The notes under the pieces were generated by a model. The model was not told where the DNA came from. It did no database searches and saw only the letters and a list, made by a program, of their open reading frames with translations. Made by a program: the position numbers and the translations under genes. Of a stretch of DNA of 64,000 nt, positions 585 through 27,091 are shown piece after piece. Origin of the DNA: Actinomucor elegans (lineage: Eukaryota; Mucoromycota; Mucoromycetes; Mucorales; Mucoraceae). The first letter of the stretch is position 1, and each line of letters opens with the position of its first letter. The stretch spans positions 1 through 64,000 of the forward strand of contig JAMSLZ010000010.1 in NCBI GenBank assembly GCA_026027325.1, written 5' to 3'.

Positions 585-986
585 GAGCAACGTTAAAAAT
601 AAAAAAAAATAAAAATTAGTTTTTAAATTAAATAGTGTTTTTTGTAATTATATTTTTTTTTGTTTAACACTTTTTTATTGTAATTTTTGAAAGTTTGGTA
701 ATTAACGTAAAAATAAGAAATTGCAATAATTATGCAAAACTTATAAAGATTAAACTTTTATATTACTTTTCAATACAATTAAACTTTTTTTTTTCATAAT
801 ATTTCACACCAGATCGAAACCCTGTTGTGCGACAATTTTTTTCTTTTAAAATTGATTAAAAAGCACGCCGTAAGTTTTTTAGCAACTTACAACTTGATAA
901 ATAAAGAAAGCTATATAATTTTAATTTAATAATATGAAAATAATTATAATATATATATTAATTATTAATGATATGTAATGTAGCTC
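585..986 (+). mobile_element. Solo 402-bp terminal repeat (family 2) in the subtelomere
   Basis: This is an AT-rich 402-bp unit beginning GAGCAACGTTA and ending ...AATGTAGCTC, so the ends form a short inverted repeat (GAGCAACGTTA and GAGCTACATTA). It is flanked by a 3-bp duplication, CTT at 582-584 and CTT at 987-989. By eye it is almost identical, in reverse complement, to the direct repeats that flank the transposase at 13661-15112. It is the equivalent of a solo LTR, or alternatively a MITE mobilised by that transposase. It carries no ORF. Confidence 0.85.
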
Positions 987-2630: not shown

Positions 2631-3668
2631 TTATATTTCATGGAAGTGTAATACTCCATTTTTTGTTTTCCATATTTTTTGTTTTTCCATGGTTGGTATT
2701 ATATCATAATTTTTAGCAATATATTCTGTGATCTTGCTCTGGAATTTTGCTATTTTCTGCAATTCACTTCTGTATTGAGCTACAATCAAAATATAGTAGC
2801 CTCGTACTTGTAGTTTTTTCCAAGGCCCAACACCGCCAAGGAATGCTGCTTCTTCCATGTTATCGATTACCCTGTCAACTGTTGGTAGGATGAGTTCATT
2901 AAGCCAACTTTTGGATGTTGAAATATTGAACCCATCGATGACATATGCCTATTATATCGTTGTTAGAGCTAAGCTGTCATTCAGTTATCATTTTTTTTTA
3001 TTAACTTACGTCTGGTTGCAGGTACTTGGGTAGGTTCGCTCGCTTGAAAATTTGGTGCCCTGCTTGTTTCAGTTCTTCTACTGGTACGGCAGAGTATTTG
3101 TTCCAAGCATTGAACATTTGTACCATTTCGGTGAGCAGTAACTCGGCAAAAAAACGCACAGATTTTTCTGATTCCAGCCCAAATAGCATGACTACGTTTT
3201 GGGCTAAGGTCCAATAGTAACTGTCGCTTGAAGACTTTATCCTCCAAGTGTTGACATACAGGTGGTTTGATTCTATGTTGATAGCTAAGTGGAAACCAGG
3301 GTATTGAGCATTTGGCTTCAATGAGGAAAGACAAGACTTTACTTGTTCCAAAGTCTCCAACGAAAGAGGATCAACAACATGACCTTGAGTAAAAAATTCA
3401 ACTGCGCTGCTTGCTGCCACTCGTGGTAGTTGTTCGCTTGTTTGGCACCTGGAAACAATGGATACTCCGAAATGTTCCACTAGATCAAACTTGCTGAGGG
3501 TGTCTTTAAAAAACCACACATTTTGCCCTTGACAATGGAGCAAATCTGTCAAGAACAAACACACAGGATTATCATTTCTTTGCCTATTCAGATATGCTGC
3601 TGCGTTCTTCCATTTTTTGCCTTCTAAAACCCGGTGGAACAAAGATGATAAAAGAAAGGCAATGTAGA

Positions 3669-3888
3669 GAGATACGTTTTAGCTATACAAAAATTAAACA
3701 CAACACAAGATATAAAGTAACAGAAAAATATAATAAATTGTTGATAAAGAATAAAATGAATCATAACGTTTTTTTTTAATATGTTTTAAAATCTCAACAA
3801 AATCGTTAATCCCAAAAAATATAATTTATTTAAAATAAATAAGAATAATGATATTAATAAAAAAATTATTTATATATAAACGTAACTC
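3669..3888 (+). repeat. Left 220-bp terminal direct repeat, family 1
   Basis: Begins GAGATACG and ends CGTAACTC, followed by TAA of the core. The sequence is the same as 5548-5767 by eye. It lies 135 bp upstream of the transposase start and probably supplies its promoter (inference). Confidence 0.9.
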
Positions 3889-4023
3889 TAAGAAATTATT
3901 ATTACACACAATGGCGTTGCAGACAATTTTATCTGCTATAATTTGAAACTCAGATGATTATTTAAAGAAAAAAATTGAATTTTTGATATATAAAAAAAAG
4001 ATCCAAGAAAGATATTTTGTGAT

Positions 4024-5481
4024 ATGATAAATGGAGATGAAAAAATATTATTACAAAATAAATTACAGATAGAATATGAAACCTTGATTAAATCAAAATG
4101 GAAATTTTTAGAAAACGAATATAGACCTATAGAAAAAAAATACCACAGAACAGAATTACAAGAGATTAAACATATAGAGAAAGTTAAAAAAAATATAGAG
4201 GATAAGATTGGGATTATTCCAACATTTTTATTTTTAACAGATTTTTGTAATAACTTTGATTTACCAGGGCCATATAGAAACATTGATAAAGCTTTGATAA
4301 TACTAGAACATTTATTAAATGGGATATCTATTAATCAAATGGAGACTTATTTACCTCATTCTAATTTTTTCAGAATTTACAAATATTTATATATCAAAAA
4401 GTATGATGAATTGAATAATTGGGTTAATAACATATTATATAACTACTGCACAAATAAAAGAATTAGGTTATTGAATTCATATATAAATAATCCAGAAATG
4501 ATGAAACATGTAACTTTATTAATGGATGGTCACCATAATAAAATAATATATGAAAATGTAGATTTTGATAGAAAAGATTTATATTCTTGGAAGTTAAAAA
4601 AACCAGGATTGAATACACAATTTGTAATAGATATTAATGATATAGCAGTATTTATATCAGATAGTTTACCATGTAAAAATAATAATGATGACAAAATGCT
4701 TATAAACAATGTACAATTTAATAAATTTTTTACTTTATATGATAATATATGTTTTGACGGTTTATATAAAAATACACTAAATGAGACTATTGAAAAGTAT
4801 TCTTTGAGAAACTTGGATATAAAAATTAACAATTTTACATTTCCTATTGAAAAGCAGAAAAAAATAGATTTAACAGATGAAGAGACAAATTTTAATAATT
4901 ATATTGGAGGATTTAGATCTAGAATAGAAACCTATTTTGCAAGTTTAGGAAAAGTATTTAAAAGATTCGATGCTAAAAATAATGTTAGAGTGACTAAATT
5001 AGAAACATATAATATACAATTAAAATTAGCTTGTGCATTATTAAATATTAAAAAGTTTGCAGAATTAAGTGGATTAAATCCATTATATAAACATTCTTTA
5101 TGGTTAAAAGATAGTTTTGATTATCCTAGTAATAATAATATAAAAGAAGATTTAATAAAGTTGGAATACAAAATGGCAGATATAAATTTAATGAAAGATT
5201 ATCAACATGATTTATTAAATTCTATTATAACTTGTAAAAATATATCTATTGAAGAAAAAAATTCTTTAACTCAAGATATTATAGATAAAGAAAAGCATTA
5301 TGAAGTTCAATATATAATATCACATAGATTAGATAAAAATGGTGTAAAGGAGTATTTTGTAAAATGGAAAGGATATAAAAAATTATATAATTCATGGGTA
5401 AAAGAGTATGATTTTGATGATAAAACTATATTAAATGAATATAATAAAGATTTAGAAGTAGATATGGATATAAGCATGTAA
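4024..5481 (+). CDS. Harbinger-like DDE transposase with C-terminal chromodomain (family 1)
   Basis: 485 residues, single exon. The first ATG after the left repeat is used. The central part matches the DDE_Tnp_4 (Harbinger-type) endonuclease pattern: Asp168 in LLMDGHHN, Asp245 in CFDGLY, and Glu302 in GFRSRIETYFASLGK ahead of a basic helical stretch. Residues about 426-475 form a chromodomain with the YEVQYI start, YFVKWKGY core and NSWVKE segment, expected to bind methylated histone tails or related marks. The N-terminal 150 residues are lysine-rich and may bind DNA. Codons are extremely AT-rich compared with the housekeeping genes. It resembles the protein at 13661-15112 along its whole length. 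The enzyme presumably cuts at the GAG...CTC termini. Family assignment is by motif only, and no paralogue carrying a separate Myb-like protein was seen nearby. Confidence 0.85.
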   Translation: MINGDEKILLQNKLQIEYETLIKSKWKFLENEYRPIEKKYHRTELQEIKHIEKVKKNIEDKIGIIPTFLFLTDFCNNFDLPGPYRNIDKALIILEHLLNGISINQMETYLPHSNFFRIYKYLYIKKYDELNNWVNNILYNYCTNKRIRLLNSYINNPEMMKHVTLLMDGHHNKIIYENVDFDRKDLYSWKLKKPGLNTQFVIDINDIAVFISDSLPCKNNNDDKMLINNVQFNKFFTLYDNICFDGLYKNTLNETIEKYSLRNLDIKINNFTFPIEKQKKIDLTDEETNFNNYIGGFRSRIETYFASLGKVFKRFDAKNNVRVTKLETYNIQLKLACALLNIKKFAELSGLNPLYKHSLWLKDSFDYPSNNNIKEDLIKLEYKMADINLMKDYQHDLLNSIITCKNISIEEKNSLTQDIIDKEKHYEVQYIISHRLDKNGVKEYFVKWKGYKKLYNSWVKEYDFDDKTILNEYNKDLEVDMDISM

Positions 5482-5547
5482 TAACTATCATTATTTATCT
5501 AATATTAAAGTCCTGACTTTTACTTCATTCTTCTTCAATTATTATTA

Positions 5548-5767
5548 GAGATACGTTTTAGCTATACAAAAATTAAACACAACACAAGATATAAAGTAAC
5601 AGAAAAATATAATAAATTGTTGATAAAGAATAAAATGAATCATAACGTTTTTTTTTAATATGTTTTAAAATCTCAACAAAATCGTTAATCCCAAAAAATA
5701 TAATTTATTTAAAATAAATAAGAATAATGATATTAATAAAAAAATTATTTATATATAAACGTAACTC
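5548..5767 (+). repeat. Right 220-bp terminal direct repeat, family 1
   Basis: Second copy of 3669-3888, preceded by TTA of the core and followed by the AGA target duplication. It starts 66 bp after the transposase stop codon. Confidence 0.9.
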
Positions 5768-7700
5768 AGACAGAAGTAGAAAGCTGTTTAAAGGTGTGCC
5801 TCTGAGAATCGGCTTTCAAAGCCAATGCCATGACGTATAACGCTTGCATTCTGGATTTGACAAAATCAAAAAGTAAACCAGTAGGAAACCATCTGATACA
5901 CTTTTCAACTGTCGCTCTAAAGTGAAGTAAAATTTTTAGTTAAAAAGTTTTGTTTATCTTTAAATAAAAGCTTTTGTCTTACCGAGTATCTGTGTGTAAA
6001 GCATGTGCAATACAATCGTTTGCAAATGCTGCTTTGACGCGAAACTCCAGCCTTGTACCATAGCCTCGTTGAGACATATGACTAATGTCACAAGTAGTAT
6101 CATCCTGTTAAATAAAAGCTATTAATACTAATGCTTTAGCAAACTTTCGTGATGAAGATACGTACTATCCACTTTTGAAATCCGCGCCCAAGTTCCCATA
6201 CTTCTACAGGGTCTATGTCTCTACCTTGACGCTCGGAAACGTTACTTCTTTTGAAAAATACGTGTTTCCATGTAGAATAAGCTTGCACTGAGACGATGTT
6301 ACTTGCTTTTTCGGAGTATTTAAATCCACCAAGTCCAGAGAACTGGCAAAAATCATCCTTTCTAATAGTACCTTTAAATCGGTTAAGAACATTTGGCTGA
6401 TAAAACTTCGATATGACACACTCATAGTCCACCCAAAGGCCAGTCCAAGAAGCACCAGGAGTAGGTAAGAAAGATAAGGCAATATCAACAAAAAGCTTGT
6501 CCATTCTAAAGAAGTCTGACCTGAGATCAAAACCAATAGACTGTAAGGCCTGTTGGTAGATTGGTTCCTCTTGATGGAAGGTAAACTCCACTTGATACTT
6601 CATACCATGCGAGAACACCACAAAGAAAAAGTCTTGAAAATCTTCTAGTATAGGGCACGTACGAACACGATTGCGCATTTGATGGACAATGCTATGTAGC
6701 TGCTCTGTTTTAGCCTTTAATGCATAGTGGCCGATACCCCCACGTGCAGCATGCTCATAGTTTAAAGGAGTTGGATATGCATTTATACTGATTGTATTCT
6801 CAACACAAAAACGAAGTAGCATGTCAACAAAGAGTGTATGGTCCTCTGTAGCAACATATGACCCGCCAATACCCGCATTCTCTGGCGCACTGAATTGATA
6901 TTTGGTGTACAAACGAGGGAAAAAAATAGCAATCTACAAAAAAATTGGCGAATGAGTAAGATTGAACAGTTGTATTAAATAACATGCTAAATTTTCTACA
7001 TACTTTAAGGTCACCACGACTACAGAATAACAGGTTTGGGCACTTGGACAAGGCAATGTTCTTTCCATTTTGAATGCTAGGGATAGACCAAGTAACACCC
7101 AGATCTGTTTTAATGGAGCTATCAAAGTTAGGTCTATAGTAGACACTAAAATTATCACCAGAAACAGGTAAACCTTGGTACGCCAAATAGATAAATGAAT
7201 CCACATCAATGAGTATTGGTAAATCTGGTAAGGTGTGAAAGCTGCTCTCCTTGCCTACCGAGATAGTTACATTGTCACGTATCCCACGCAAGAAAGTGTT
7301 TACCAAATAGTTATCCCGGACTAAGGGCGCGAAAGTCTCTGAATTAGCACCGTAGTGCCCTTGCATAAACTCTTCAAGCCGAGTAAGACCATCATCTGCA
7401 CTTGGTACACGAGAAGGTCCAGGAAGAGGTAGCAATTCGTCATCTATAGACAGCTGTTTAGAGAATGAAAGGAACTTAACGCAAAATATACATACCAGAG
7501 TGCACTAAATTGCTCGGATCGGCAATTGGCCCAGTTGCTGAAAAAGTACGACCAATAACAGTTGTGTTACTGGCAGCAAAAAAGGGGTTACGAATTGGAG
7601 AACTACATACAAGCGAGGTAGTATGCATAGGAGTAGCTAGGAAAAATATAGTATATGGTTATTTGTTGGTTTATAGAATTTAACAGTAAGTAACTTACGA

Positions 7701-8168
7701 TGTGTTGAATCCGAAGTAGCTAAAGACCAAAGATTCACGTAATAATAATAATAAGACTTGTATATGTAATCAGATTACTGATTGGTAATAAGATAGTTAT
7801 TCATTCTTTATTTCGATCATAAAATGAAGGTGTATTTATATTAGTTAAAGGTCTTATGTTTAACCGATTGACAGGTACTGCTGAGAATGAATGAATGAAA
7901 CAATAATTCATGTTTAGCCGATTACTTGCAAGTTACGGTAGAATTAGTTTATACAAGTAAACGTACTGTTCTTGTATTGGTTCTTGTATTATTACTGATG
8001 AGTAATGTTAATGACAAGTGATGATGAATCGATCTAGAAGCTTAATTGATTATGCGTGATTGCTTGATTGGTGAAACCTGTTTGTCGGGTCAATCAGTTA
8101 CGCAGTTAGATAGCTTTAATTGAGACATGTCGTATGTATAGCCTGTGAATATAAGCGTGTATACGACA
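7701..8168 (-). repeat. 3' LTR of a Ty3/gypsy element
   Basis: Read on the minus strand it starts TGTCGTATACAC directly after a polypurine tract (GGAAGGGGGCAA, 8169-8180) and ends ...TTCAACACA, giving TG...CA ends over 468 bp. It contains a TATAAATA box. Its distal edge coincides with the point where the subtelomeric gene loses its 5' end. Confidence 0.7.
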
Positions 8169-8375
8169 TTGCCCCCTTCCAGATGAGAACATCGCTTGTG
8201 TAAGATCTTTGATAAAAGATGTAATGTGATGTACAAGTTTTAAGAACGTAAGGCAGTGTAATTGAGTTGTCATTGTAAGATCGTTATAAGTGTAATAATT
8301 TAGTCGATAAAAACCTTTGTAAAAAACCAATGTTTTGGAAAAAATCAAAATAAAGGAAAAGACAAGTTAATTAAC

Positions 8376-9410
8376 CTATGATCTTGTAACTCGTGGTTGA
8401 CGCGTTCTGCTGTATTTATTACGAGCAGGCATCTTACGTTTGTTGATTGTATCAGGTAAACGTGTATTTGAACTATGTTGTGAAGAGGTTGCTTGACGTC
8501 TAGCCCAATAATCTTGGATTGGTTTCATTGAGTCAAATGTATCAACGGTTTGCCAAGTATTATATTTTGCTTGATCATCATAGCCAGCCCAGTGTACGTA
8601 ATATTCATAATTACCAGGTGTACCTCTGTGGTTTACAATTGCTTGTACCTCATAGTGTTTGTCTTTAAGTTCGTTAGCAGAGCGTTTGTCGCCAGCTTGT
8701 ATTAATCTGATCTGTTGTGTAGGAACATCTCGAGATAATAGTGAACCTGCAAGATCCTCTAATATGTAACTACCATTCTTAGTGTAACCTTTAATGATCA
8801 ATGGGCCGATCCATCTAGGTTGTACTTTAGCAGTTCGATTGACATTAGTGATCATGACTTTAGAGTTAAGAGGGTACTTGTCACGAATGATCTTATGAGA
8901 CTTTTCAAAACGTTCGTGATCAAATAATTGTGTTTCCTTGATTCTTTTAGCAAGAGCAGGAATAACCACTTCTTTAACATATTTTAACTTTTCATCAATG
9001 ACTTTATGATCCGATTTCTCAATGTCTATAGTGGGTTTTACATTAGTGTAATCCTCAAATCCGTTTGGATGTCTAAAGAACATTGCTGAGAAGGGACGAG
9101 ACTTATGAAGTCTAGCGTATTGAACGTTCATCGAATATTGCGTTATATCCAAGTAAGTATCCCACGAATCAGCAGTAGCAGCGTTCGCAGTTAATGTCTT
9201 AATGATAGTTCTCTTGGAAATACCAACATAACGTTCACAAACGCTATTACCTAAAGGTGTATATGGTAAAGAGAGTCTTCTATCGACACCACTCATCGTG
9301 ATCAACTGTGTAACTACTTCATTAACCCATTCAAGACCGTTATCCATAGTAATGATCTTAGGAAATCCGAATAGACAAAAGATACTAAGTAATTCTTTAG
9401 CAAGGTTAAA
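8376..9410 (-). pseudogene. Truncated Ty3/gypsy integrase with chromodomain (chromovirus pol 3' end)
   Basis: An open frame runs from 9548 to 8376, but only 9410-8376 is retroelement; the first 46 or so codons come from the adjoining Merlin terminus. Counting from the frame start, Asp69 (ITMDNG) and Glu105 (NSVCERY) have the DD35E spacing of retroviral-type integrases, and the first catalytic Asp is lost. A GPY/F-like region (PRWIGPLIIKGY) follows, then a chromodomain (HYEVQAIVNHR ... YYVHWAGY ... NTWQ) and a basic tail. Reverse transcriptase, RNase H and the zinc finger of integrase are absent. A polypurine tract and LTR follow at 8180-7701. The element cannot move on its own. Confidence 0.88.
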
Positions 9411-9488
9411 TGCTAATATAAGGACACCAGGTGGATTTGGACGAATTGAGACCCTAAGGGGCTTTCCTAATTTGGACGAGGTCACGTG
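9411..9488 (+). repeat. Merlin left terminal inverted repeat
   Basis: Pairs with 11722-11799 with about a dozen mismatches. It contains the shared segments AAGGACACCAGGTGGATT and CACGTG. Confidence 0.8.
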
Positions 9489-9542
9489 GTTTAAACTCCG
9501 GTCGGTAGGGGCAAAAATTATAAGTTTTAAAAATATAAAGTT

Positions 9543-9627
9543 GCGCACTTAGTAAAGTGGTAGTAATGCAATCTGACGCTGATGAGGCCTTAGGTTCAAT
9601 ACTGGCTCAAGTCAGTTGTATTTTTTT
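9543..9627 (+). promoter_or_regulatory. tRNA-like RNA polymerase III unit inside the Merlin left end
   Basis: An A-box match TAGTAAAGTGG (9550-9560) is followed 32 bp later by a B-box match GGTTCAATACT (9593-9603) and then by a T7 run (9621-9627), the usual Pol III terminator. The acceptor and T stems do not pair well, so this is a decayed tRNA-derived unit rather than a tRNA gene. Expression is an inference. Confidence 0.4.
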
Positions 9628-9794
9628 AGTAGGTGGTAGTGCATGTAGTCAACATTATTATTGTGAAAGTCTATGAAAATGGATATTGTTTTGTATTTTA
9701 TAAGACTTAAGATGCTGTACTTTGATTAGTAACTTAAAGTGTCATATATACATATATAAGTTGAATTTTAACATACAAATTTATTAATTTTAAT

Positions 9795-11326
9795 TTAATT
9801 TAGCCTTCTTCTTCTATGGCGTCGTCTTTCAATTGGTATATCTTCTTCTGTTTCACGTTCTTCTATTACTTGAGTATATACTGGAGGATTGAACTCCCTA
9901 CGGTTGAATTCAACCTCTCTCAAAGTCTTCAGAAGCCCTCCAAATATGTCGGCGTTGTATTTTCGACGCCACATAAACTCGAGCAATATCCAAGGCATTT
10001 CTTCAGCGGTACGTTGGCGTGGTTTTGCATGGAGTTTAATACCATTCCAATTACCTAAAGTTTATAAATTGTGTTAATTAGGCGAGTTTATATTAATGTA
10101 TTAATAAAAATACCTTCAATTACTTGAGTATGCACCCCAGTTCTTGATACAAATTCCGCTGAATGGTTTACTGTTTCATGCGAAAAGTCACCCCATTGAG
10201 GAATATTGTTATATGCCCTCCAGCAGTCTGAGTGGATAATCGTACCTGGTTTTATAAACCTTTGGATGATAACCTTCATCGTTTCAGCACTACGATTTGG
10301 TACTGTCACCATAAAACATCTTCGTTTGTTGGTGATCTCTACACCACCAACAACCCAAATACCATCAACTCGGTGGCCTCGATTATATTTTCGTTTACCA
10401 AATTTGGATTCGTCAATTTGGACGATAATGGGATTTCTATTATCGTCCAGACCTCCTAAGGAGTTAATTTAATGTAAGTAACGTAAATTTATCTCGCTTC
10501 CTTAGCTGGTACACTTACCAATTTTAAGATCTTCTTCCGTTTGATTACCAGATAAAAAGTCCTCTTGCATTATCTGGTAAAAATCATCTATTACGCCTCT
10601 AATGGTGTCAGGATGGATACCAGTAGATAGAGTAATTGTATTACGAGGAGCCTTACAGCATAGCCAGTAATACAAAACAATAAACTGATCACGGAGAGTG
10701 CTTTTACGTTCAGCAAAGAACGATTGAAAAAGAACCGAACATCTACTTTTGTTGCAGCATTTGCTCTTGTGACAACGCCAAACATAGCCGCGATCGCTAT
10801 TAAAGGTTAGTTTCATGGTGATACCATTAGGACACTTTATTCCTGTGTGAGTATAGTCATAAAGTATTTTTTGTTCCATGAGATAACTAAATAAAATGAA
10901 TTCAGTTAATTATACTTTATGCTAGGTGAATGTATATACGTACCGCACTGTACTATTGTCGTCTTTTAACTGATTTCCAATAAGTTCAAAGATAGTGATC
11001 ATTTTAGTGGTAGGTTTTCTAGACCAAAGCTCTATTTCACCAAGCTGACTAAGAGGCAAAGCCGTTGGGAGAGAAACGCCACTAAATGTACTTGGTTCAA
11101 CTTGCTGAGGTTGAAGACTATCCAAATAAGCCAAATAAGCATCACCATCATCCTCCTCGTCGCCAGAGGATCTGGTTGAAGTCACAGTATTCTGCTCCAG
11201 ACTTAGGTCATCCAATAATTGAGGACTAGTCGAGCGAACTTCAATAGAAGAAGTAGGAATAGGAGTTGAGAGAGAACCAGAAGCGTTGGTAGAACTGGAA
11301 TCAAAAGCATGGAATGAGGAGAACAT
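9795..11326 (-). CDS. Merlin/IS1595-family transposase, four exons
   Basis: Exons of about 11326-10942, 10889-10516, 10452-10114 and 10056-9795 join in frame through GT-AG introns of 53-63 bp and give about 450 residues. The N-terminal exon is Ser/Thr-rich and disordered. The second carries a Cys-rich zinc-ribbon-like segment (CPNG ... WRCHKSKCCNKSRC). The third holds the IS1595 DDE core: Asp in QIDESKFGKRKYNRG, Asp in IHSDCWRAY, then NHSAEFV and the TGVHTQVIEG motif that carries the third acidic residue in this family. The last exon continues with the conserved EFMWRRKY segment and an Arg-rich tail. No stop or frameshift is seen, so it may be active. Exon ends are my reading of splice consensus, and the first exon is the least certain. 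Confidence 0.75.
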
Positions 11327-11586
11327 CTTGACAAGAAGCTTAGATAAAATGAAGATAGTAAATACTTGATAAAAGAGATAAAGAAAGGGGAGAAGGTGGA
11401 AAAAGGCACCTTTTTATTACTTTTTTTCTACAACTAGCAGTCACAATGAGTCATAATATGTCATACTGAGCTATATAAGCCAGCCAATTACTAACTACAA
11501 AAGAAAATGAGTCATTAAGACTCAAAATTGATGAGTAAGCCAGATAAAAGACTACATACACTACAGAGCAATGGAAAAATAATAAT

Positions 11587-11667
11587 GTTGACTACTAGTA
11601 TTGAACTCCCAACCGTTTCAATATAACTGAACCGAGCCTACACCTAGGCCAAATGCGCACTCTTTTA
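11587..11667 (-). promoter_or_regulatory. tRNA-like Pol III unit inside the Merlin right end
   Basis: Read on the minus strand, A-box TGGCCTAGGTG (11651-11641) fits the consensus exactly and B-box AGTTCAATACT (11607-11597) follows. A TTCA/TGAA anticodon-like stem encloses a 7-base loop between them. It mirrors the unit at 9543-9627 at the opposite terminus. It is a decayed tRNA-derived sequence; activity is unknown. Confidence 0.4.
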
Positions 11668-11721
11668 CAAATAAAAAAATGGTAACAGCCCAACAAGGAC
11701 ATATATTAATCACGTGACCAT

Positions 11722-11799
11722 CACGTGGTCTCATCCGAATTAGGTAACCCCCTTATGGTCTCAATTCGTCCAAATCCACCTGGTGTCCTTATATTAGCA
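11722..11799 (-). repeat. Merlin right terminal inverted repeat
   Basis: Inverted copy of 9411-9488. The outer edge is TATATTAGCA at 11799, directly abutting gag sequence. Confidence 0.8.
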
Positions 11800-12313
11800 C
11801 TGATCCCCAATTGGTATCCAAGTCTTGAACATGGGCACGGAGTACCTTCTCGAAACAAACGCAAAAATCATGAGCCGAGTCATACATGTCTTCACGAGGC
11901 TTCCATTGGTGTTCACCTCTTAATTGAAGAAAAGGTAGACCAGCAGGCACAATCGCAGGGCGATGGGATGCAGAGACAGGACCAGAAGTGGATGAAGATT
12001 CATCCATAATCTTCAGGTAAGAATTTTGAGCCTGTTTGAAATGAGCAAGCTTTTCTTCAGCAGACTTGTAAGCCACATATGCCTCGTTGGCAGCAGTAGA
12101 GTTAGGATCTTGACGAACCAGAGCAGCCAAACGAGTAAACAGCATTCTAGAGTTATCAGTTAAGGCTTGAACCACATCCGAGGCATCATCAGGAGGTGAA
12201 TCAATGGTTGATTGATTATCAGAGAAGGCTTGTTCGACTTCACCAATAGGACCAGAAATGACACCATCCATGGTAGAGACACCAGAATCAGTAACAGGGG
12301 CTTGAGCAGACAT
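11800..12313 (-). pseudogene. Truncated Ty3/gypsy gag (LTR-A family)
   Basis: It starts with ATG at 12313, 38 bp inside the LTR at 12351-12659, and is open to the Merlin junction at 11800 (about 171 codons). It shares with the gag at 17355 a coiled-coil-like N-terminal half, then an LPxFQL...KP motif and a Phe/Trp pattern of capsid type. The C-terminal half and all of pol are missing. Confidence 0.7.
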
Positions 12314-12350
12314 AGTAAGTAGAATAAAGCGTTGAATTCAAAAAGTAAAA

Positions 12351-12659
12351 TGTTGTGTTTGCACAGTGAATAATAAAGAAGACTAAAAAGAGTACTTTTT
12401 GAGACTGTGCTTTATTAACAAAGATGAATATAAAGATGAAAAATCCTATAACTATGTCTAAACTAAACCTATTTATACTAATCGTCTATCTAAGTGTGGT
12501 GAAGAGGATTTAAGAAGATGTTATGTTATAGGTCTATGTTCTAGATATATATCCATCTGAGACATGAATCTTAAACATATCAACTCATAAGTGCTTCCGT
12601 AAAGATGAGATTGATAATGAATAAGTTATTATTCATACAATAGTCTCTATTCTATAACA
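12351..12659 (-). repeat. LTR-A, 309 bp, minus orientation
   Basis: Read on the minus strand it starts TGTTATAGAATAGAGAC and ends ...GTGCAAACACAACA. It is a near-identical inverted copy of 17029-17337. It is the 5' LTR of the truncated gag at 11800-12313. Confidence 0.85.
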
Positions 12660-13136
12660 CTATTCATAAAGAACGTCCCATTGTTTTGGAACATGTTTTA
12701 AATTTCTTCGATAGCTCAATTTAAAATAATTTTATGCGACGCTAAGTAATGACGAATTTTGAAAAATCAAAAAATCAAAATTTCTCAAATTCGCCTTAGC
12801 TCCGTAGTTTTAAATAGAGTTCGCAGTAAAGGAAAACCTATAGGAAAAAAGGCCAAAGTTTTAGCCCTCTATTGATACTAACATCAACCGCATAGTTTTA
12901 TTTTAGACAGCTGTGTAAAGAGAAAAATGTTAATTTATAAAACATTGAAACCCTTTTTTCGCATACAGTATTTTGAACATATTTCTGTAATACTAAATGT
13001 TCTTCATAGGTCTATGTTCTAAATAGAGCAACATTTTCTTTTCATAAAAAGAAAAGCGACTCCCAACCTTCACGTTTCCAAGGAACACGTCACAAGCTCG
13101 TGTTAAGGCTGAACTACGCTTACCAACATTTATTTT
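12660..13136. other. AT-rich sequence without a recognisable gene
   Basis: No ORF or domain is seen. A fragment near 13003-13021 (AGGTCTATGTTCTA) resembles part of LTR-A, so it is probably old retroelement debris. Confidence 0.4.
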
Positions 13137-13258
13137 TGTTGTAAACGCTCATGATTATATTAATAAGAGAATACTGTACAGATAGAAAATCGTATAGATA
13201 TCCTTATATATAGCTGCAGAAGTGTATAAAGCATTATTACCAAGAACCAGAATGTAAA

Positions 13259-13660
13259 GAGCTACATTACATATCATTAATAATTAATATATATATTATA
13301 ATTATTTTCATATTATTAAATTAAAATTATATAGCTTTCTTTATTTATCAAGTTGTAAGTTGCTAAAAAACTTACGGCGTGCTTTTTAATCAATTTTAAA
13401 AGAAAAAAATTGTCGCACAACAGGGTTTCGATCTGGTGTGAAATATTATGAAAAAAAAAAGTTTAATTGTATTGAAAAGTAATATAAAAGTTTAATCTTT
13501 ATAAGTTTTGCATAATTATTGCAATTTCTTATTTTTACGTTAATTACCAAACTTTCAAAAATTACAATAAAAAAGTGTTAAACAAAAAAAAATATAATTA
13601 CAAAAAACACTATTTAATTTAAAAACTAATTTTTATTTTTTTTTATTTTTAACGTTGCTC
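13259..13660 (-). repeat. Terminal direct repeat, family 2, downstream of the transposase
   Basis: 402 bp, ends GAGCTACATTA and GAGCAACGTTA in inverted relation. The transposase stop codon directly abuts its inner edge at 13660/13661. It contains the only GC-rich island of the repeat (13411-13440) next to a small hairpin (GTAAGT...ACTTAC, 13355-13375). Confidence 0.92.
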
Positions 13661-15112
13661 TTAGACATTGATAGAATCCCAATAATTCTTTAGAATATCT
13701 TTTGTTTGAAAGTCACTTTCTTTAATCCAACTGTTTACTTGTTTTTTATAATTTCTCCATTTTACCTCATATTCATATTCATTATTTATTTTTCTATGTT
13801 GTATTATATATTGTATCTCATATACATTTTTATCAGTACTAGTATTATTATCATCATTATCAATTTGCATTTTATTTTTAGTTAAGCTGATTTTAAAATT
13901 ATTATCAGATAAAAGTTTATTTAGAAGATCATCCTGTAAACTTTTCATATTCATTATATTTTCTTTTTTATATACCGCCTTTATTGATTTAGTTTCGATA
14001 TTAAAATCCTTAATAGTATCAAAAAAATCAAAATCTTTTTCCATCCATAGTTTATAATAAGATTTTTCTTCTATATTATTATTTTCTACAAAGTTTTTGA
14101 TATTAAATAAAACTAATGCTAATTTAATCTGAATGTTATATGTTTTTTCTTTTGTAATTCTTGCATTGGCTTTGTAGCTAAATCTTTTGAATATATTTGA
14201 AAATTTTGCAAAAAAAGTTTCAATGGTACTTCTATATGATCCTAATTGTTTATTAAAATTTAATTCATCAACATCTAAATCAATATTTTTTTCTTTTTTT
14301 ATTGGAAAACAAAAGTTATTTTCTGTAATATGTAATCCTACATTATTATATTTTTTTAAAATTTCATCTAATACATTTTCATACAATCCATCATAGCATA
14401 AACAATCTGTTAGTTTAAAAAATTTCATTAAATTTATATTATTAATAAACATATTATCGTCATTATTAAATTTACACGGTAATGATTCTGAAACATAGAT
14501 GATATATCCTGCTGAATCTATAATAAATTGGGTGTTTAATGCATTTTTCTTTAATTTATAAGAATATAAATCTTTTTTATTTAAATCAATATCTTCAATT
14601 ACTATTCTATTATGTCTTCCATCTAAAAGTAATGTACAATGTTCAAAATTTTTAGGATTGTATAATTTACTATATAATAATCTAGTAATGCTGTTGCTAA
14701 AACAATAAAACATCGTATTATTAACCCAATTTTCTAAAAAATCTATATTATCAATAAAAACAGATTTATAAATTCTATAAAAAGAATCATTCTCATCATA
14801 AATTTTCATATCATTAATGGAACAACCATCTACTAATAATTTTAAAATCAAAATTCCTTTTTCTACATTATATACTGGTGATGGCATTTTAATTTTACTA
14901 CAAATTTCTGTTAAAAATACAAATATAGGAATTGCACCTAATAGTTCATATAATTCTTTTTTTATATTTTGAATGTTAATAAAATTTCCTATTTTACTTC
15001 TATGATATTGTTTTTCAATATTAGATTTATATGTATTATCTAAAAATTTCCAATAATTTGTTTTAATCTCTTCATATTCATTTTCTAATAGTTCCTCTAT
15101 TTCAATTGTCAT
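13661..15112 (-). CDS. Harbinger-like DDE transposase with C-terminal chromodomain (family 2)
   Basis: 483 residues, single exon, start 183 bp inside the upstream repeat edge. Catalytic triad candidates are Asp164 (LLLDGRHN), Asp241 (LCYDGLY) and Glu298 (SYRSTIETFFAKF), in the same order and spacing as in the protein at 4024-5481. A chromodomain occupies about residues 431-480 (YEIQYIIQHR, EYEVKWRNY, NSWIKESDF). Overall similarity to the family 1 protein is clear but moderate, so the two are separate lineages rather than copies. Coding sequence is very AT-rich. The stop codon TAA is the last triplet of the core, so translation ends exactly at the repeat border. It is expected to act on the GAGNNACRTT termini. 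Confidence 0.87.
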   Translation of the reverse strand: MTIEIEELLENEYEEIKTNYWKFLDNTYKSNIEKQYHRSKIGNFINIQNIKKELYELLGAIPIFVFLTEICSKIKMPSPVYNVEKGILILKLLVDGCSINDMKIYDENDSFYRIYKSVFIDNIDFLENWVNNTMFYCFSNSITRLLYSKLYNPKNFEHCTLLLDGRHNRIVIEDIDLNKKDLYSYKLKKNALNTQFIIDSAGYIIYVSESLPCKFNNDDNMFINNINLMKFFKLTDCLCYDGLYENVLDEILKKYNNVGLHITENNFCFPIKKEKNIDLDVDELNFNKQLGSYRSTIETFFAKFSNIFKRFSYKANARITKEKTYNIQIKLALVLFNIKNFVENNNIEEKSYYKLWMEKDFDFFDTIKDFNIETKSIKAVYKKENIMNMKSLQDDLLNKLLSDNNFKISLTKNKMQIDNDDNNTSTDKNVYEIQYIIQHRKINNEYEYEVKWRNYKKQVNSWIKESDFQTKDILKNYWDSINV

Positions 15113-15295
15113 AAGATGTTCTTATTTTTATTTATATAATAATTCAATTTTTTAGAAAAAAGTAATTGAGTTTGAATTAATGTTACAGAAATGATTATAA
15201 TTATAATTATTTTAATATTAAACATTCAAACATTTGGCAAAAAAAAAATAAAAATTGATACTATGAATCAAAAACAAAGAGCAATTTTTATATAA

Positions 15296-15696
15296 GAGCT
15301 ACATTACATATCATTAATAATTAATATATATATTATAATTATTTTCATATTATTAAATTAAAATTATATAGCTTTCTTTATTTATCAAGTTGTAAGTTGC
15401 TAAAAAACTTACGGCGTGCTTTTTAATCAATTTTAAAAGAAAAAAATTGTCGCACAACAGGGTTTCGATCTGGTGTGAAATATTATGAAAAAAAAAAGTT
15501 TAATTGTATTGAAAAGTAATATAAAAGTTTAATCTTTATAAGTTTTGCATAATTATTGCAATTTCTTATTTTTACGTTAATTACCAAACTTTCAAAAATT
15601 ACAATAAAAAAGTGTTAAACAAAAAAAAATATAATTACAAAAAACACTATTTAATTTAAAAACTAATTTTTATTTTTTTTATTTTTAACGTTGCTC
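15296..15696 (-). repeat. Terminal direct repeat, family 2, upstream of the transposase
   Basis: 401-bp copy of 13259-13660, preceded inside by TAA and followed outside by the AAA target duplication. Confidence 0.92.
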
Positions 15697-16129
15697 AAAT
15701 GACTGTATTTGATTATGTTAAAATATATCTTTATTTATATATCACTCTGAGCAAGTAGACGCTAATTGATAAATACTATCTCTCACACCAAATATTACAG
15801 TCAATACTATTACCTTTGAATATATTGATCCCGACACTCCTCGCCGCTAATCTTGGTCCGCTCATTTGGTTATTATCCCTGGTCTTCTTTATGCGCAGTC
15901 CAACCTTGTTCCTGGCAAATCGTAATATGAATTTAGAATCAAGTACCGATCGAGAAAAAGTATACAAGAGATGCGTTTTATCACCTTTTGACCAGTTAAT
16001 CAATTCTTGATCTATAATAAAAACTATCCACAGTTTTAAAAGTATTTCTATCTTTCCAAATCTCTATCTACCACCTTTACAACATTTTTTACTTTTAATT
16101 ACTGTCCTATTTTCCTTACTTTTATCAAT

Positions 16130-16205: not shown

Positions 16206-17028
16206 AATCATTAGTCCACGTGCTTCCAAGACATCCATGCATCACGTCACGTTACCATGACTCATGTTTCGAGTTTCAGACGCGTAATCTGAAACCGTGA
16301 GATTGTTTCAGTCAGTGAAACAATCACCAATCAGACCCATGTTCCAAGTTGATTAAGTAATCCATGTTTCATCATTGAAAAGGTATAAATAAGATCTACA
16401 TTTGTAGCCATCTTTACCTTTGTCAATTATCCTAGTTGTTGTGTACGTGGATAGAAAGAGGATTATAATAGAAGAACAGAAGAATAATATCAAAACTGTG
16501 GTAAGTCTTTTTATTTCAAAATTAAATTTCGAAAATGATCTCTTCTAATCAGCTAAGAGCTCGTCCTTTTATACTTTTCAGCTTGCTGCGGTTGACTAAT
16601 GATATTATGGGTATACGTAAGCTAGTAGCTTGTTGACTGCGCGGCTCATAGTGACTTGCTGATATTCCAAGATGATGATGATGGCCGACATACTGCGGTA
16701 CCATATCGGACTGTAAATAAAGGTAAGCATTTTATCTCGGCATAACACTCGATTAGGAATTTGTCTTTTACTGCTATTTCTTGTTTTATAATAAAGCGTA
16801 ATAATTACACAGTTGTTCATATTCTGGATTCGGGTAATAATGAGTTACATCTTCAAGCTATTCATAAAGGTGGGCATATGGCTACCAAAGCCTATACAAC
16901 CTCTTCTTTACTGATATAATCATGAGCGTTTACAACACTAGTCTTAACCCTAGTCGTATTACTACTCAAATAAACTTACCTTTACCATTTACACTTGTCG
17001 ATATTCTGTCCACGCCTTGTATAGCCAG
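16206..17028. other. Mosaic of old LTR fragments
   Basis: There is no intact gene. 16805-16936 is a diverged copy of the 3' part of LTR-B (shared TAATCATGAGCGTTTACAAC, ends CA at 16936). 16206-16600 holds an LTR-like promoter segment with TATAAATAAG near 16384. Confidence 0.5.
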
Positions 17029-17337
17029 TGTTATAGAATAGAGACTATTGTATGAATAATAACTTATTCATTATCAATCTCATCTTTACGGAAGCACTTA
17101 TGAGTTGATATGTTTAAGATTCATGTCTCAGATGGATATATATCTAGAACATAGACCTATAACATAACATCTTCTTAAATCCTCTTCACCACACTTAGAT
17201 AGACGATTAGTATAAATAGGTTTAGTTTAGACATAGTTATAGGATCTTCATCTTTATATTCATCTTTGTTAATAAAGCACAGTCTCAAAAAGTACTCTTT
17301 TTAGTCTTCTTTATTATTTCACTGTGCAAACTCAACA
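17029..17337 (+). repeat. LTR-A, 309 bp, plus orientation
   Basis: Starts TGTTATAGAATAGAGAC and ends ...GTGCAAACTCAACA. It is the inverted counterpart of 12351-12659, with the same length and very high identity. It is the 5' LTR of the gag that starts at 17355. Confidence 0.88.
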
Positions 17338-17510: not shown

Positions 17511-17913
17511 GAGCTACATTACATATCATTAATAATTAATATATATATTATAATTATTTTTATATTATTAAATTAAAATTATATAGTTTTCTTTATTTAT
17601 CAAGTTGTAAGTTGCTAAAAAACTTACGACGTGCTTTTTAATCAATTTTAAAAGAAAAAAATTGTCGCACAACAGGGTTTCGATCTGGTGTGAAATATTA
17701 TGAAAAAAAAAAGTTTAATTGTATTGAAAAGTAATATAAAAGTTTAATCTTTATAAGTTTTGCATAATTATTGCAATTTCTTATTTTTACGTTAATTACC
17801 AAACTTTGAAAAATTACAATAAAAAAGTGTTAAACAAAAAAAAAATATAATTACAAAAAACACTATTTAATTTAAAAACTAATTTTTATTTTTTTTTATT
17901 TTTAACGTTGCTC
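17511..17913 (-). mobile_element. Solo 403-bp terminal repeat (family 2) inside gag
   Basis: Same sequence as the repeats at 13259 and 15296, with a few substitutions. The duplication is ATT (17508-17510 and 17914-17916). Without it the gag frame runs uninterrupted through an Ile codon. It carries no transposase core. Confidence 0.92.
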
Positions 17914-21877: not shown

Positions 21878-24850
21878 ATGGGCAAAGTTTCCTCTTCTGC
21901 TACACCATATAAATATACTTGCGCTACTTGTTTGAGGCCATTCAAAACTGTTAAAGCTAGGAGTAATCACTATAGCCATAATCGTGATCATAGAAAACAA
22001 AGGGTCGTCCAAACGCAAGAAGCTAGCATTCCTGTCCAAGGTGAGTTAACAGATATATTACTAAAGCTTTTAATTTAACAATATACCTTGTTTGAAATAG
22101 AGCCTACTCCAATTGCTTACAACGTCAAATCCTCGGATCAAAACCTTTTCACCAATACGGAATTAAATAGCATCCAATTGAGAGATATTTGCGACACGTA
22201 TGGTATTCCTCGAGAGGCTCAAAGAGAACTTGTCTATCTAATGCGTACCATAATCAAAAACAATGAAGAGAGCCGTAAAACCGATGGATTGGGTATGTAT
22301 CTATTCAAATAGAGTTAAAAAAAAAGTACTTATCAGCTTTTATTCCCATTATATATAGGTTACCTACCATCCACTCTCATGTTCCCTGATACCTTGGATC
22401 GTACTCTTAAAGCAAAAACCAATATTCAATGTCATTTTCATGATGTCTGCGTCAATGGTTGCATGCTGTTTGAAAAGGAAGATATAGAGACTATTCAATG
22501 TAAAAACCCTGCTTGTAAAGAAAATCGCTTTGATGATCATGGTAAACCTCGTCGCTCTATGAAGATGCTTCCTATTGGTGAACAAGTCGCTCAAATGCTT
22601 GCGAATGCAAAGACAAGAGACTTGATGAAATACCGCTACAACTATAAATCAACTGACGGTGAATATAAAGATTACTTTGATGGTGCAGCATACAAGTACT
22701 TTAAGGATAATAGCATTCTGTTTTCCGGTGAAGATGATGTCGCAATGGTTCTTTTTGTCGATGGTTTCTGTACTAGCAAGAATCATAAAGGGGACAAGTT
22801 AACAATCATCCATCTCTTGAATATGAACATTCCCCCAGAATACCGCTACCAAGACGAATACATGCTTCAATTGGCGATCTTGCCAGGTCCAAACTACCCA
22901 AAGTACATGCATACCTTTTTAAAGCCTATTATTGATGAGTTTCATGCTCTGTCTACCAAAGGCATGCTTGTACAAAAGGATGGTGTAATTGTTTGTCAAG
23001 CTAAAGTCAACTTGGTGATGGCTACTGGTGATCTTCCTGCTGCAGCTGAGCTTGCAAATCATATTGGTCATATGGCTACGTTTGGTTGCCGTATTTGTCG
23101 TGTCCAAGCTGAACGTCATGATTATCATAATTGTTTTTTAACGATCGACAATGAGATCAGAAGCAGAAACGATTTCATTTCCCCAGATGCAGCGAATGTA
23201 AGTACTATAATCAGCATTAATCTTTACAAGTTTTTAACATTTCTTTTTCTTTTTACCTCATAGAGCTACAGTATCAAGTCTGCAACACCATTTGCAATAC
23301 TTCCCAGTTTTACTGGCGCTACTTTTTTTGGTTTAGACGAAATGCATCTTCTCGGACAAGGTATCGCTCAACACGTATTCAATATGCTGACAGTCGACAT
23401 GGGTAAAGAGTACAATGCAGCAAGAAAAACTCGATATAAGCCCAATGAAGATGAATTGAGTGATGCCCGATTGAAGTCTGCTGATGAATGGCCGTATACT
23501 TTCTATATTCCAAAATTATCGCTCATCAAAATTGGTAAACTTGTTGAAGCTTCTAGAGCCACTGTACCGACATCCTTTTCATCCAAATGGGAAGATCCAA
23601 TTATCAAGAGTGGTGGCAAACGTGCTGTTGACTGGATTGATATTTTCTTATATATGATTCCCACCTTGTTCGTTCCTGAATTGATTCAAGAATCCGCTAA
23701 GAAACCATTGATTCATCTGACAAAAGCTGTCGCATTGGCTCTTAAATGGGAACTTTCTATTGAAGACCTTATTCTGATGGAAAGGTAAATATATTTTTTT
23801 TGTACTCATAAATCTAGTTTACTTACATACTTTCCAAAGATATATCAAAGAATGGCAAGAATTTTTGTTGGCAGAAATCAAGGCAAAGCGTATTCATTCC
23901 GGTGTATTCAAGCCTGTTCAACACTACCTTTCGCATATAGTCTATATGATCAAACAACAAGGTGTGTTGAGAGCATATTCCGCCCGATCAATGGAAAGAA
24001 GCATCGGAAAATACAAAAAGCTCATCAAGTCAAAGGTTGATGCTGGCGCAAACGCTGGTAATATCTTGGAAAGACTCATAACGCGTAATCATATAAACAG
24101 CCAGACTTGGGATGTTCATACTGAGCTTGACCTGATCACTCCTCGAAAATACAGCGAATCCACTTTCAGGAATAACCCTTCTGGTGATGCTAGTGATCCA
24201 CAATTATGGGCTCCCTTTAGTAATATTTCAGTGGATACTCTTCCCTTTGGTGTCTCCACTCAAACTTTTTTGAAGGCGCTATTGCATTACTATCGCCGTA
24301 CTGAAGCAAATGGTGTAAATATTGCTGAAATTGATTCGTTGAATAGTATTTCCATCGCTGGTCGTGCCTGGGCATATGGCAATGTATATACGTCTACCAT
24401 GTATAAAAGCCATATAAATGAATATCGTCGAGGAAACAATTACGTGATGATCACTGCCAGCTACTTGAAGTAAGTAATTAGCTCAAGAACAAAAACCTCT
24501 TTGATTAACCAACCTTTGTTAATAGTCGAAATAATTCCATTCGTGAAAGCTGGTTCATTGGTTCTATCGTTTTCTTTTTCGAGCATTCATTCAATGGTAG
24601 ACCACAGTATTTGGCTTTGGTTGATTTAGCGAAAAAGAATGCAACTACCAAATATGACAAGACTATTGCTTTGGTTGAGCTGCACAGTAGCGGTGCACAC
24701 AGTTACGCTGTCTGTCGGTTTGAAGATATTGTTGCCAGTGTAGGTCTTGTGCGTTCAAGTGAATCTAATGAGAAAGAGTTCAAGATCATCTCTCATCATA
24801 TATTTAAACAAGATCTAGAGCAAAATGCTGGCATATTAAGTCGTTTGTAA
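21878..24850 (+). CDS. Tnp2/Plavaka-like CACTA transposase, multi-exon
   Basis: Exons of about 21878-22039, 22100-22290, 22358-23199, 23264-23785, 23841-24470 and 24525-24850 make roughly 890 residues. Residues about 12-35 form a C2H2-like finger (CATCLRPF ... HYSHNRDH). Exon 3 holds the Tnp2-type catalytic region: VLFVDGF, then LLNMNIPPEYRYQ, ILPGPNYPKYM, VKVNL-like DLPAAAELANHIGH and the CRICR knuckle. Exon 4 starts at the MHLLGQGIAQHVFN motif, equivalent to the DxMHxLxxG block of this family. The C-terminal part is a conserved domain of unknown role. No stop or frameshift was noticed within exons, so the gene may be functional. Exon ends are estimated from splice sites. Confidence 0.78.
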
Positions 24851-26585: not shown

Positions 26586-27091
26586 TGTTGTAAAGGTGGT
26601 AGATAGAGATTTTGGAAGATAGAAATACTTTTAAAACTGTGGATAGTTTTTTATTATAGATCAAGAATTGATTAACTGGTCAAAAGGTGATAAAACGCAT
26701 CTCTTATATACTTTTTCACGATCGGCACTTAATTCTAAATTCATATTACGATTTGCCAGGAACAAGGTTGGACTGCGTATAAAGAAGACCAGGGATAATA
26801 ACCAAATGAGCGGACCAAGATTAGCGGCGAGGAGTGTCGGGATCAATATATCCAAAGGTAATAGTATTGAATGTAATATTTGGTGTGAGAGATAGTATTT
26901 ATCAATTAGCGTCTACTTGCTCAGAGTGATATATAAATAAAGATATTTTAACATAATCAAATACAGTCATTTACATTCTGGTTCTTGGTAATAATGCTTT
27001 ATACACTTCTGCAGCTATATATAAGGATATCTATACGATTTTCTATCTGTACAGTATTCTCTTATTAATATAATCATGAGCGTTTACAACA
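26586..27091 (+). repeat. Solo LTR-B, 506 bp
   Basis: TGTTGTAAAGG ... TTTACAACA, flanked by a perfect 5-bp duplication GTTTT (26581-26585 and 27092-27096). Excision rejoins gag in frame between its two Cys/His clusters. This copy preserves the uninterrupted target site of the DDE transposon at 13259-15696. Confidence 0.92.

Follow-up and report, generated by a model that had tools for sequence, protein, structure and literature searches.

DNA transposons with long terminal direct repeats in the genome of Actinomucor elegans

The first 64,000 nucleotides of contig JAMSLZ010000010.1 of the fungus Actinomucor elegans (assembly GCA_026027325.1), hereafter the window, contain two transposons, element 1 and element 2. 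In each, one transposase open reading frame (ORF) lies between two long direct repeats (R), so that the unit reads R-core-R (Table 1). The original prediction had described both as a transposase ORF between direct repeats of 220 and about 402 bp with inverted ends of the GAG...CTC type, and the coordinates, the identity of R and the inverted ends were confirmed. The imperfect inverted ends belong to R itself and were GAGATACG/GAGTTACG in element 1 and GAGCAACG/GAGCTACA in element 2, the two R of the latter differing by no substitution and by an indel of one base. The 3-bp duplication expected around the whole unit was also found (AGA/AGA and AAA/AAA), and both elements had such duplications at their outer edges and none at their inner edges. 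Moreover, the repeat in which element 2 resides is present elsewhere in the window as an empty site, where positions 26586-26972 match the left flank (96.9%) and 26970-27091 the right flank (100%), the two matches overlapping exactly in a single target triplet. Thus, the 2.4-kb unit was inserted as one piece.

Table 1. Coordinates of the two elements and related features in the window
Feature	Position	Strand	Remarks
Element 1, R-core-R unit, 2099 bp	3669-5767	+	Family F12/E1; same R pairing at C11, C5 and C1
Left R, element 1, 220 bp	3669-3888	+	Ends GAGATACG...CGTAACTC
Right R, element 1, 220 bp	5548-5767	+	100% identical to left R
Transposase ORF, element 1, 485 aa	4024-5481	+	DDE_Tnp_4 and chromodomain
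Left target duplication, element 1	3666-3668		AGA
Right target duplication, element 1	5768-5770		AGA
Element 2, R-core-R unit, 2438 bp	13259-15696	-	Family F6/E2
Upstream (5') R, element 2, 401 bp	15296-15696	-	
Downstream (3') R, element 2, 402 bp	13259-13660	-	
Transposase ORF, element 2, 483 aa	13661-15112	-	DDE_Tnp_4 and chromodomain; stop codon abuts R
Left target duplication, element 2	13256-13258		AAA (+ strand)
Right target duplication, element 2	15697-15699		AAA (+ strand)
Solo R, family E2	585-986	+	Flanked by CTT
Solo R, family E2	17511-17913	-	Flanked by ATT (+ strand)
Empty site of element 2	26586-27091	+	Uninterrupted copy of the flanking repeat

As predicted, the proteins combine DDE_Tnp_4 with a chromodomain; both window proteins matched PF13359 (DDE_Tnp_4) and PF00385 (Chromo) above the Pfam cut-off. 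PF13359 was likewise above the cut-off in nine of ten further proteins scanned, that of family F13 falling 0.5 bit below. The residues D164, D241 and E298 (element 2 numbering) were invariant in 17/17 aligned proteins, and a chromodomain was found in every family with direct R except one. The transposase ORF was located between the R in all nine families compared. In the window it nearly fills the core, leaving 201 bp (E1) and 183 bp (E2) for a second ORF with Myb/SANT such as marks PIF/Harbinger and Nuwa. A His-Me finger nuclease is a mark of KolobokP (see below); the Pfam search, which covered the E1 and E2 ORFs and neither antisense ORFs nor the longer cores outside the window, returned only transposase and chromodomain above the cut-off.

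Genome-wide, DDE_Tnp_4 was found at 131 places in 36.5 Mb, 150 of the 157 candidates having been scored. Of the 131, 46 were analysed at the DNA level and clustered into 14 groups, no plan being assigned to F10, F1 or the F0 group. Direct R surrounded the gene in eight families, namely, F4, F5, F6 (element 2), F7, F9, F11, F12 (element 1) and F13, with R of 220-402 bp and units of 2.1-2.8 kb. In these families R starts with GA and ends with TC, and its inverted ends agree at 7-14 of their first 16 bases. R was unrelated between families save for one short match. The core triplets at the inner R edges were reverse-complementary in E2, F7 and F11 (TTA...TAA), E1 (TAA...TTA), and F13 and F2 (TAG...CTA), and not in F4, F5 and F9.

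Transposase copies without flanking repeats were looked for, but 74 of the 77 transposase places counted in six families had their own R on both sides (E2 15/15, F9 29/31, F4 21/22, F13 4/4, F7 3/3 and element 1 2/2), the 77 being the scored places that share a family's score. Together with the eight families, this bears out the proposal that the architecture is maintained rather than accidental. Sixty-nine of the 74 were spaced normally, and five held extra DNA between the R (162 bp in one F9 unit, 6-9 kb in four F4 units), which was taken for nested insertions, the DNA between the R being unread. When R ends were counted by pattern, E2 gave 100 left and 97 right ends, with pairs about 2036 bp apart numbering 20 by right and 18 by left ends. 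The corresponding numbers of ends and pairs were 98 and 36 for F9, 61 and 19 for F4, 13 and 4 for F13, and 9 and 4 for F7. In the case of element 1, a DNA search recovered eight R as three pairs and one pair about 509 bp wider, which has AAG at both outer sides; duplications at three distinct sites were AGA, GTA and AAG. Some units are segmental duplicates with a common flank, as are the C2 and C11 copies of element 1.

Not all of the related proteins come with the plan. It was maintained in the eight families, but F3 is without R, F8 showed no direct R, and the R of F2 stands either way around. The F2 R is 282 bp long, has perfect inverted ends of 67 bp and occurs in either orientation on the left and on the right of the gene; nine copies with both sides readable comprised five inverted/direct, two direct/direct, one inverted/inverted and one direct/inverted, some right R being partial. 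The F2 core has its own 142-bp inverted ends, and the F2 R (e.g., at L018, L020, L023, L025 and L027) is a flipping end module. In the case of F8 (481 aa), a 207-bp inverted repeat without duplication was present, and no direct R was found in the 2.8-kb block common to two copies.

Target duplications were also looked for at the core edges. They were found instead at the outer edges of R, where a perfect 3-bp duplication was observed at 45 of 49 distinct sites in nine families. This tally was collated by hand, with same-flank rows dropped (L037, L060 and window position 585) and with the F2 unit of L018 left out, other F2 copies lying outside its scope. The sites without a perfect duplication were L035, L048, the F9 unit of L017 and the F4 unit at C22:62381. 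Among E2 units with flanks, 8/9 had the outer 3-bp duplication, and the ninth (L035) has a 4-bp match. The target triplets were A/T-rich without a fixed pattern (ANT 13/45, TWA 2/45). Exact empty sites were found for 2/10 distinct units and 5/19 distinct solos among the loci compared, including one in L133 for the unit in L033; for the units of L029, L030 and L035, the joined query had an error of one base. The same units occur at unrelated sites with their own 3-bp duplication at each, and it is the whole unit that inserts as one piece with this duplication. Because of this recurrence and the empty site of element 2, a chance arrangement was ruled out. The suggestion that two cores had been flanked by accident by miniature inverted-repeat transposable elements (MITEs) had nothing in its favor beyond the first two elements taken alone, and the genome-wide counts of R and transposase, the outer duplications, the empty sites and the plan in eight families make its probability negligible.

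The units resemble chromovirus (Ty3/gypsy) long terminal repeat (LTR) retrotransposons, which have direct end repeats, solos, identical ends and a chromodomain at the C-terminus of their DDE enzyme; all of these features recur here. However, unlike LTR retrotransposons, the units showed no reverse transcriptase, primer-binding site (PBS), polypurine tract (PPT) or TG...CA ends, their repeats have inverted ends, and their duplications are 3 bp long. The predicted absence of reverse transcriptase, PBS and PPT agreed with the window cores, in which none was seen, and in nine families purine runs within the 25 bases preceding the right R reached no more than 2-7 nt. A non-autonomous LTR retrotransposon that captured a transposase gene and is moved by the reverse transcriptase of another element would share the LTR-like plan and the solos. 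This candidate was rejected as highly improbable, as the ends are GA...TC with imperfect inverted ends and not TG...CA, no PPT-like tract is present, the core begins with TGG in only 1/9 families, the duplications are 3 bp, and the catalytic residues are conserved in all aligned proteins. LTR-finding software may file these units and their solos as LTR elements.

Further traces were found in the solos, in an array and in the identity of the two ends. Twenty unpaired E2 R complete at both ends were fetched, and 19 of them had a perfect 3-bp duplication. In F9, three R at spacings of 2281 and 2283 bp formed an array (about C22:9970-14753) with AGT at both outer sides, which parallels the multimers described for KolobokP; it was judged by R spacing with the intervening DNA unread, and a listed transposase lies in one of the two intervals. 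Comparison of left and right R in 26 units (7,589 bp) revealed two substitutions in total, both in L030. Two E2 subfamilies differ at four R positions, and the left and right R were concordant at all four in 9/9 units read; at the E2 marker position, left and right agreed in 20/20 pairs. Therefore, both R changed together at least once. Separately, one E2 solo R with the changed end GTAGGTC was found with the same flank nine times near contig ends (twice in C4 and once each in C10, C12, C15, C22, C24, C26 and C27). Because the flank is common to all nine, this suggests spread by duplication of contig ends and not by transposition.

A named precedent for the plan exists, whereas the original prediction knew of no named superfamily with LTR-like direct repeats around a DDE_Tnp_4 and chromodomain protein. 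As described by Kojima & Bao 2022 (PMC9587614), KolobokP is a group of animal transposons of a different superfamily, Kolobok, with long terminal direct repeats around a core. Most of its families encode a homing endonuclease and a few have none detected, and its authors proposed the nuclease as the force behind multimers, counterbalancing loss of the plan. The present units are like KolobokP, as far as that account goes, in the R-core-R plan, in R with its own short terminal inverted repeats (TIRs), in solos and multimers, in KolobokP usually with target duplications, and in a DDD/E transposase in the core. Unlike KolobokP, which is defined by a C/DxxH motif between the second D and E (PMC9587614), they have DDE_Tnp_4 with a chromodomain, lack C/DxxH (0/17 aligned proteins, 0/13 family proteins), and show, in the two window cores, no visible space outside the ORF that could house a nuclease. 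Bacterial composite or IS26-type units, as discussed in PMC9587614, also have two mobile-looking end modules around a core and arrays with shared ends; unlike in bacterial composite transposons, the transposase here is in the core and not in the end modules. Within the open-licence PMC literature, no DDE transposon with the R-core-R plan besides KolobokP was found; Repbase was not searched. KolobokP being already known, the present units are a second case of R-core-R DDE transposons, here in a PHIS-like group.

The PHIS superfamily comprises PIF/Harbinger, ISL2EU, Spy, Pangu and Nuwa (Han et al. 2015, PMC4482050). The units share with PHIS, as characterized there, the placing of D, D and E, mostly 3-bp duplications and TIRs starting with A or G; both the DDE_Tnp_4 domain with D, D and E and the 3-bp duplication (45/49 sites) were found here. 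Unlike the PHIS elements described, which have terminal inverted repeats, they have direct repeats, and neither 'direct repeats' nor 'chromo' occurs in the main text of PMC4482050. By the definitions in that paper, the units also differ from PIF/Harbinger proper, whose TWA duplication matched only 2/45 triplets, and from Pangu, whose ANT duplication matched only 13/45. PIF/Harbinger is reported from Mucorales (PMC7928374), PHIS names are given in PMC12730594, and a Mucor element that is termed 'LTR-like' and bears a transposase domain was placed in a reverse transcriptase tree (PMC11943222).

It was concluded, with a probability of roughly 0.72, that the units are a PIF-Harbinger-like (PHIS) lineage whose transposition unit is R-core-R, moved by cut-and-paste at its outer ends and subject to recombination of R with R, which gives identical ends, solos and dimers. 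The transposase would bring together the outer ends of the two R, left and right, before cutting and pasting the unit. Gap repair templated by the sister copy, or a crossover of one direct repeat with the other, would convert one R to the other, and solos and dimers would be by-products of such repair or crossover. The chromodomain might steer insertion to heterochromatin-like clusters or aid survival there. The R sites of three families were clustered, 166 sites occupying 68 bins of 100 kb against 133.5 expected (uniform distribution, 365 bins, duplicated sites included), a pattern to be expected either if the chromodomain guides insertion or if copies simply survive where genes are sparse. 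We infer that the LTR-like anatomy and its traces (solos, array and identical ends) arise through DNA recombination and not through reverse transcription. These traces occur without visible room for a nuclease in the window cores; if that absence holds, a homing endonuclease would not be required for the plan.

Several observations weigh against this conclusion. Only one family showed homogenisation of the two R. Units compared in F4, F9 and F13 had no substitutions from one unit to the next, 13 of the 26 units being such recent copies, and the comparison within and between units is therefore silent in these families. The 22 solos read (20 fetched and two in the window) carry haplotypes absent from the nine units read, which fits either old units or an independent life of R. 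Moreover, the solos could equally arise by R moving alone, which is conceivable because R has both ends. Among duplicated sites, none paired a full unit with a solo, the sole shared flank (C11:9421 and C12:254) being cut by a contig end. Ten normally spaced R pairs were without a listed transposase place (E2 4/18, F9 5/36 and E1 1/3), their cores being unread. Finally, F3, whose protein is related, lacks R and is a conventional element of 2.15 kb, its duplications being ATA and CAA if its start is GGGG.

The same solos bear on a true composite, in which R would be a MITE-like module that moves independently, mobilised in trans by the transposase, units would persist only because their gene is bracketed by two R, and solos would be transpositions of R. 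E2 has more unpaired R than units (100 left ends, 20 pairs), R has both termini, the solo haplotypes were not among the units read, the F2 R lies in either orientation on either side, and signs of R excision are mentioned for KolobokP in PMC9587614. However, E1 had its eight R in four pairs without a solo, and F7 had four pairs and one single with a mismatch. Excision of R should also leave one-sided units, but the E2 junctions (19 left and 22 right) included one unexplained right-only case. The three right-only junctions consisted of one at a contig start, one with a left R whose junction has diverged, and the copy at C21:3592116, which is one-sided or truncated. As the identical left and right R are not explained by R mobility alone either, the composite was considered rather unlikely.

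Another possibility is that R is regenerated at each transposition from a single-R intermediate, e.g., a circle of core and R, by the DDE transposase and DNA repair. The two left/right substitutions in 26 units, the E2 R pairs that changed together at four single-nucleotide polymorphisms and the presence of an array are in line with it, but recombination after insertion accounts for the same facts, and regeneration is accordingly improbable. The broader proposition, a DDE lineage that regenerates both long terminal repeats from a single-R intermediate as a DNA-only counterpart of LTR retrotransposition, independent of KolobokP and without an accessory nuclease, is a speculative one that we also regard as doubtful. 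The units provide a second case for asking how the identity of two ends is preserved when no reverse transcription takes place. With the conventional relative F3 and the either-way F2 in one genome, the origin and upkeep of such ends can be tested in a single organism.

The R-core-R plan is known here from one genome, and 55 homologous proteins elsewhere lie mostly on contigs of about 1.2-2.6 kb. Among viral contigs searched with the protein and with an alignment, no relatives were found. Prokaryote genomes gave one matching locus, in a Bacteroidetes bin, for residues 403-483 (the chromodomain part). In a whole-protein Foldseek search the chromodomain predominated, and there was no match at E<=0.001. 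In the midpoint-rooted tree, F0 stood apart on a long branch, and the label 'direct R' needed four changes, no better than shuffled labels.

Other features were observed around element 2 and elsewhere in the window. A 222-bp perfect inverted repeat (12440-12661 and 17027-17248; about 311 bp at 98.7% by BLAST) brackets element 2, which may accordingly sit inside a further element whose inverted ends are long. At 12969-13005 lies a 37-bp piece of the F9 R, its remainder absent. The ORF at 8376-9347 (-) contains a chromodomain (PF00385) and by eye resembles the C-terminus of a Ty3/gypsy integrase, and the ORF at 22379-23263 (+) matches Transposase_21 (tnp2) and marks a further DNA transposon.

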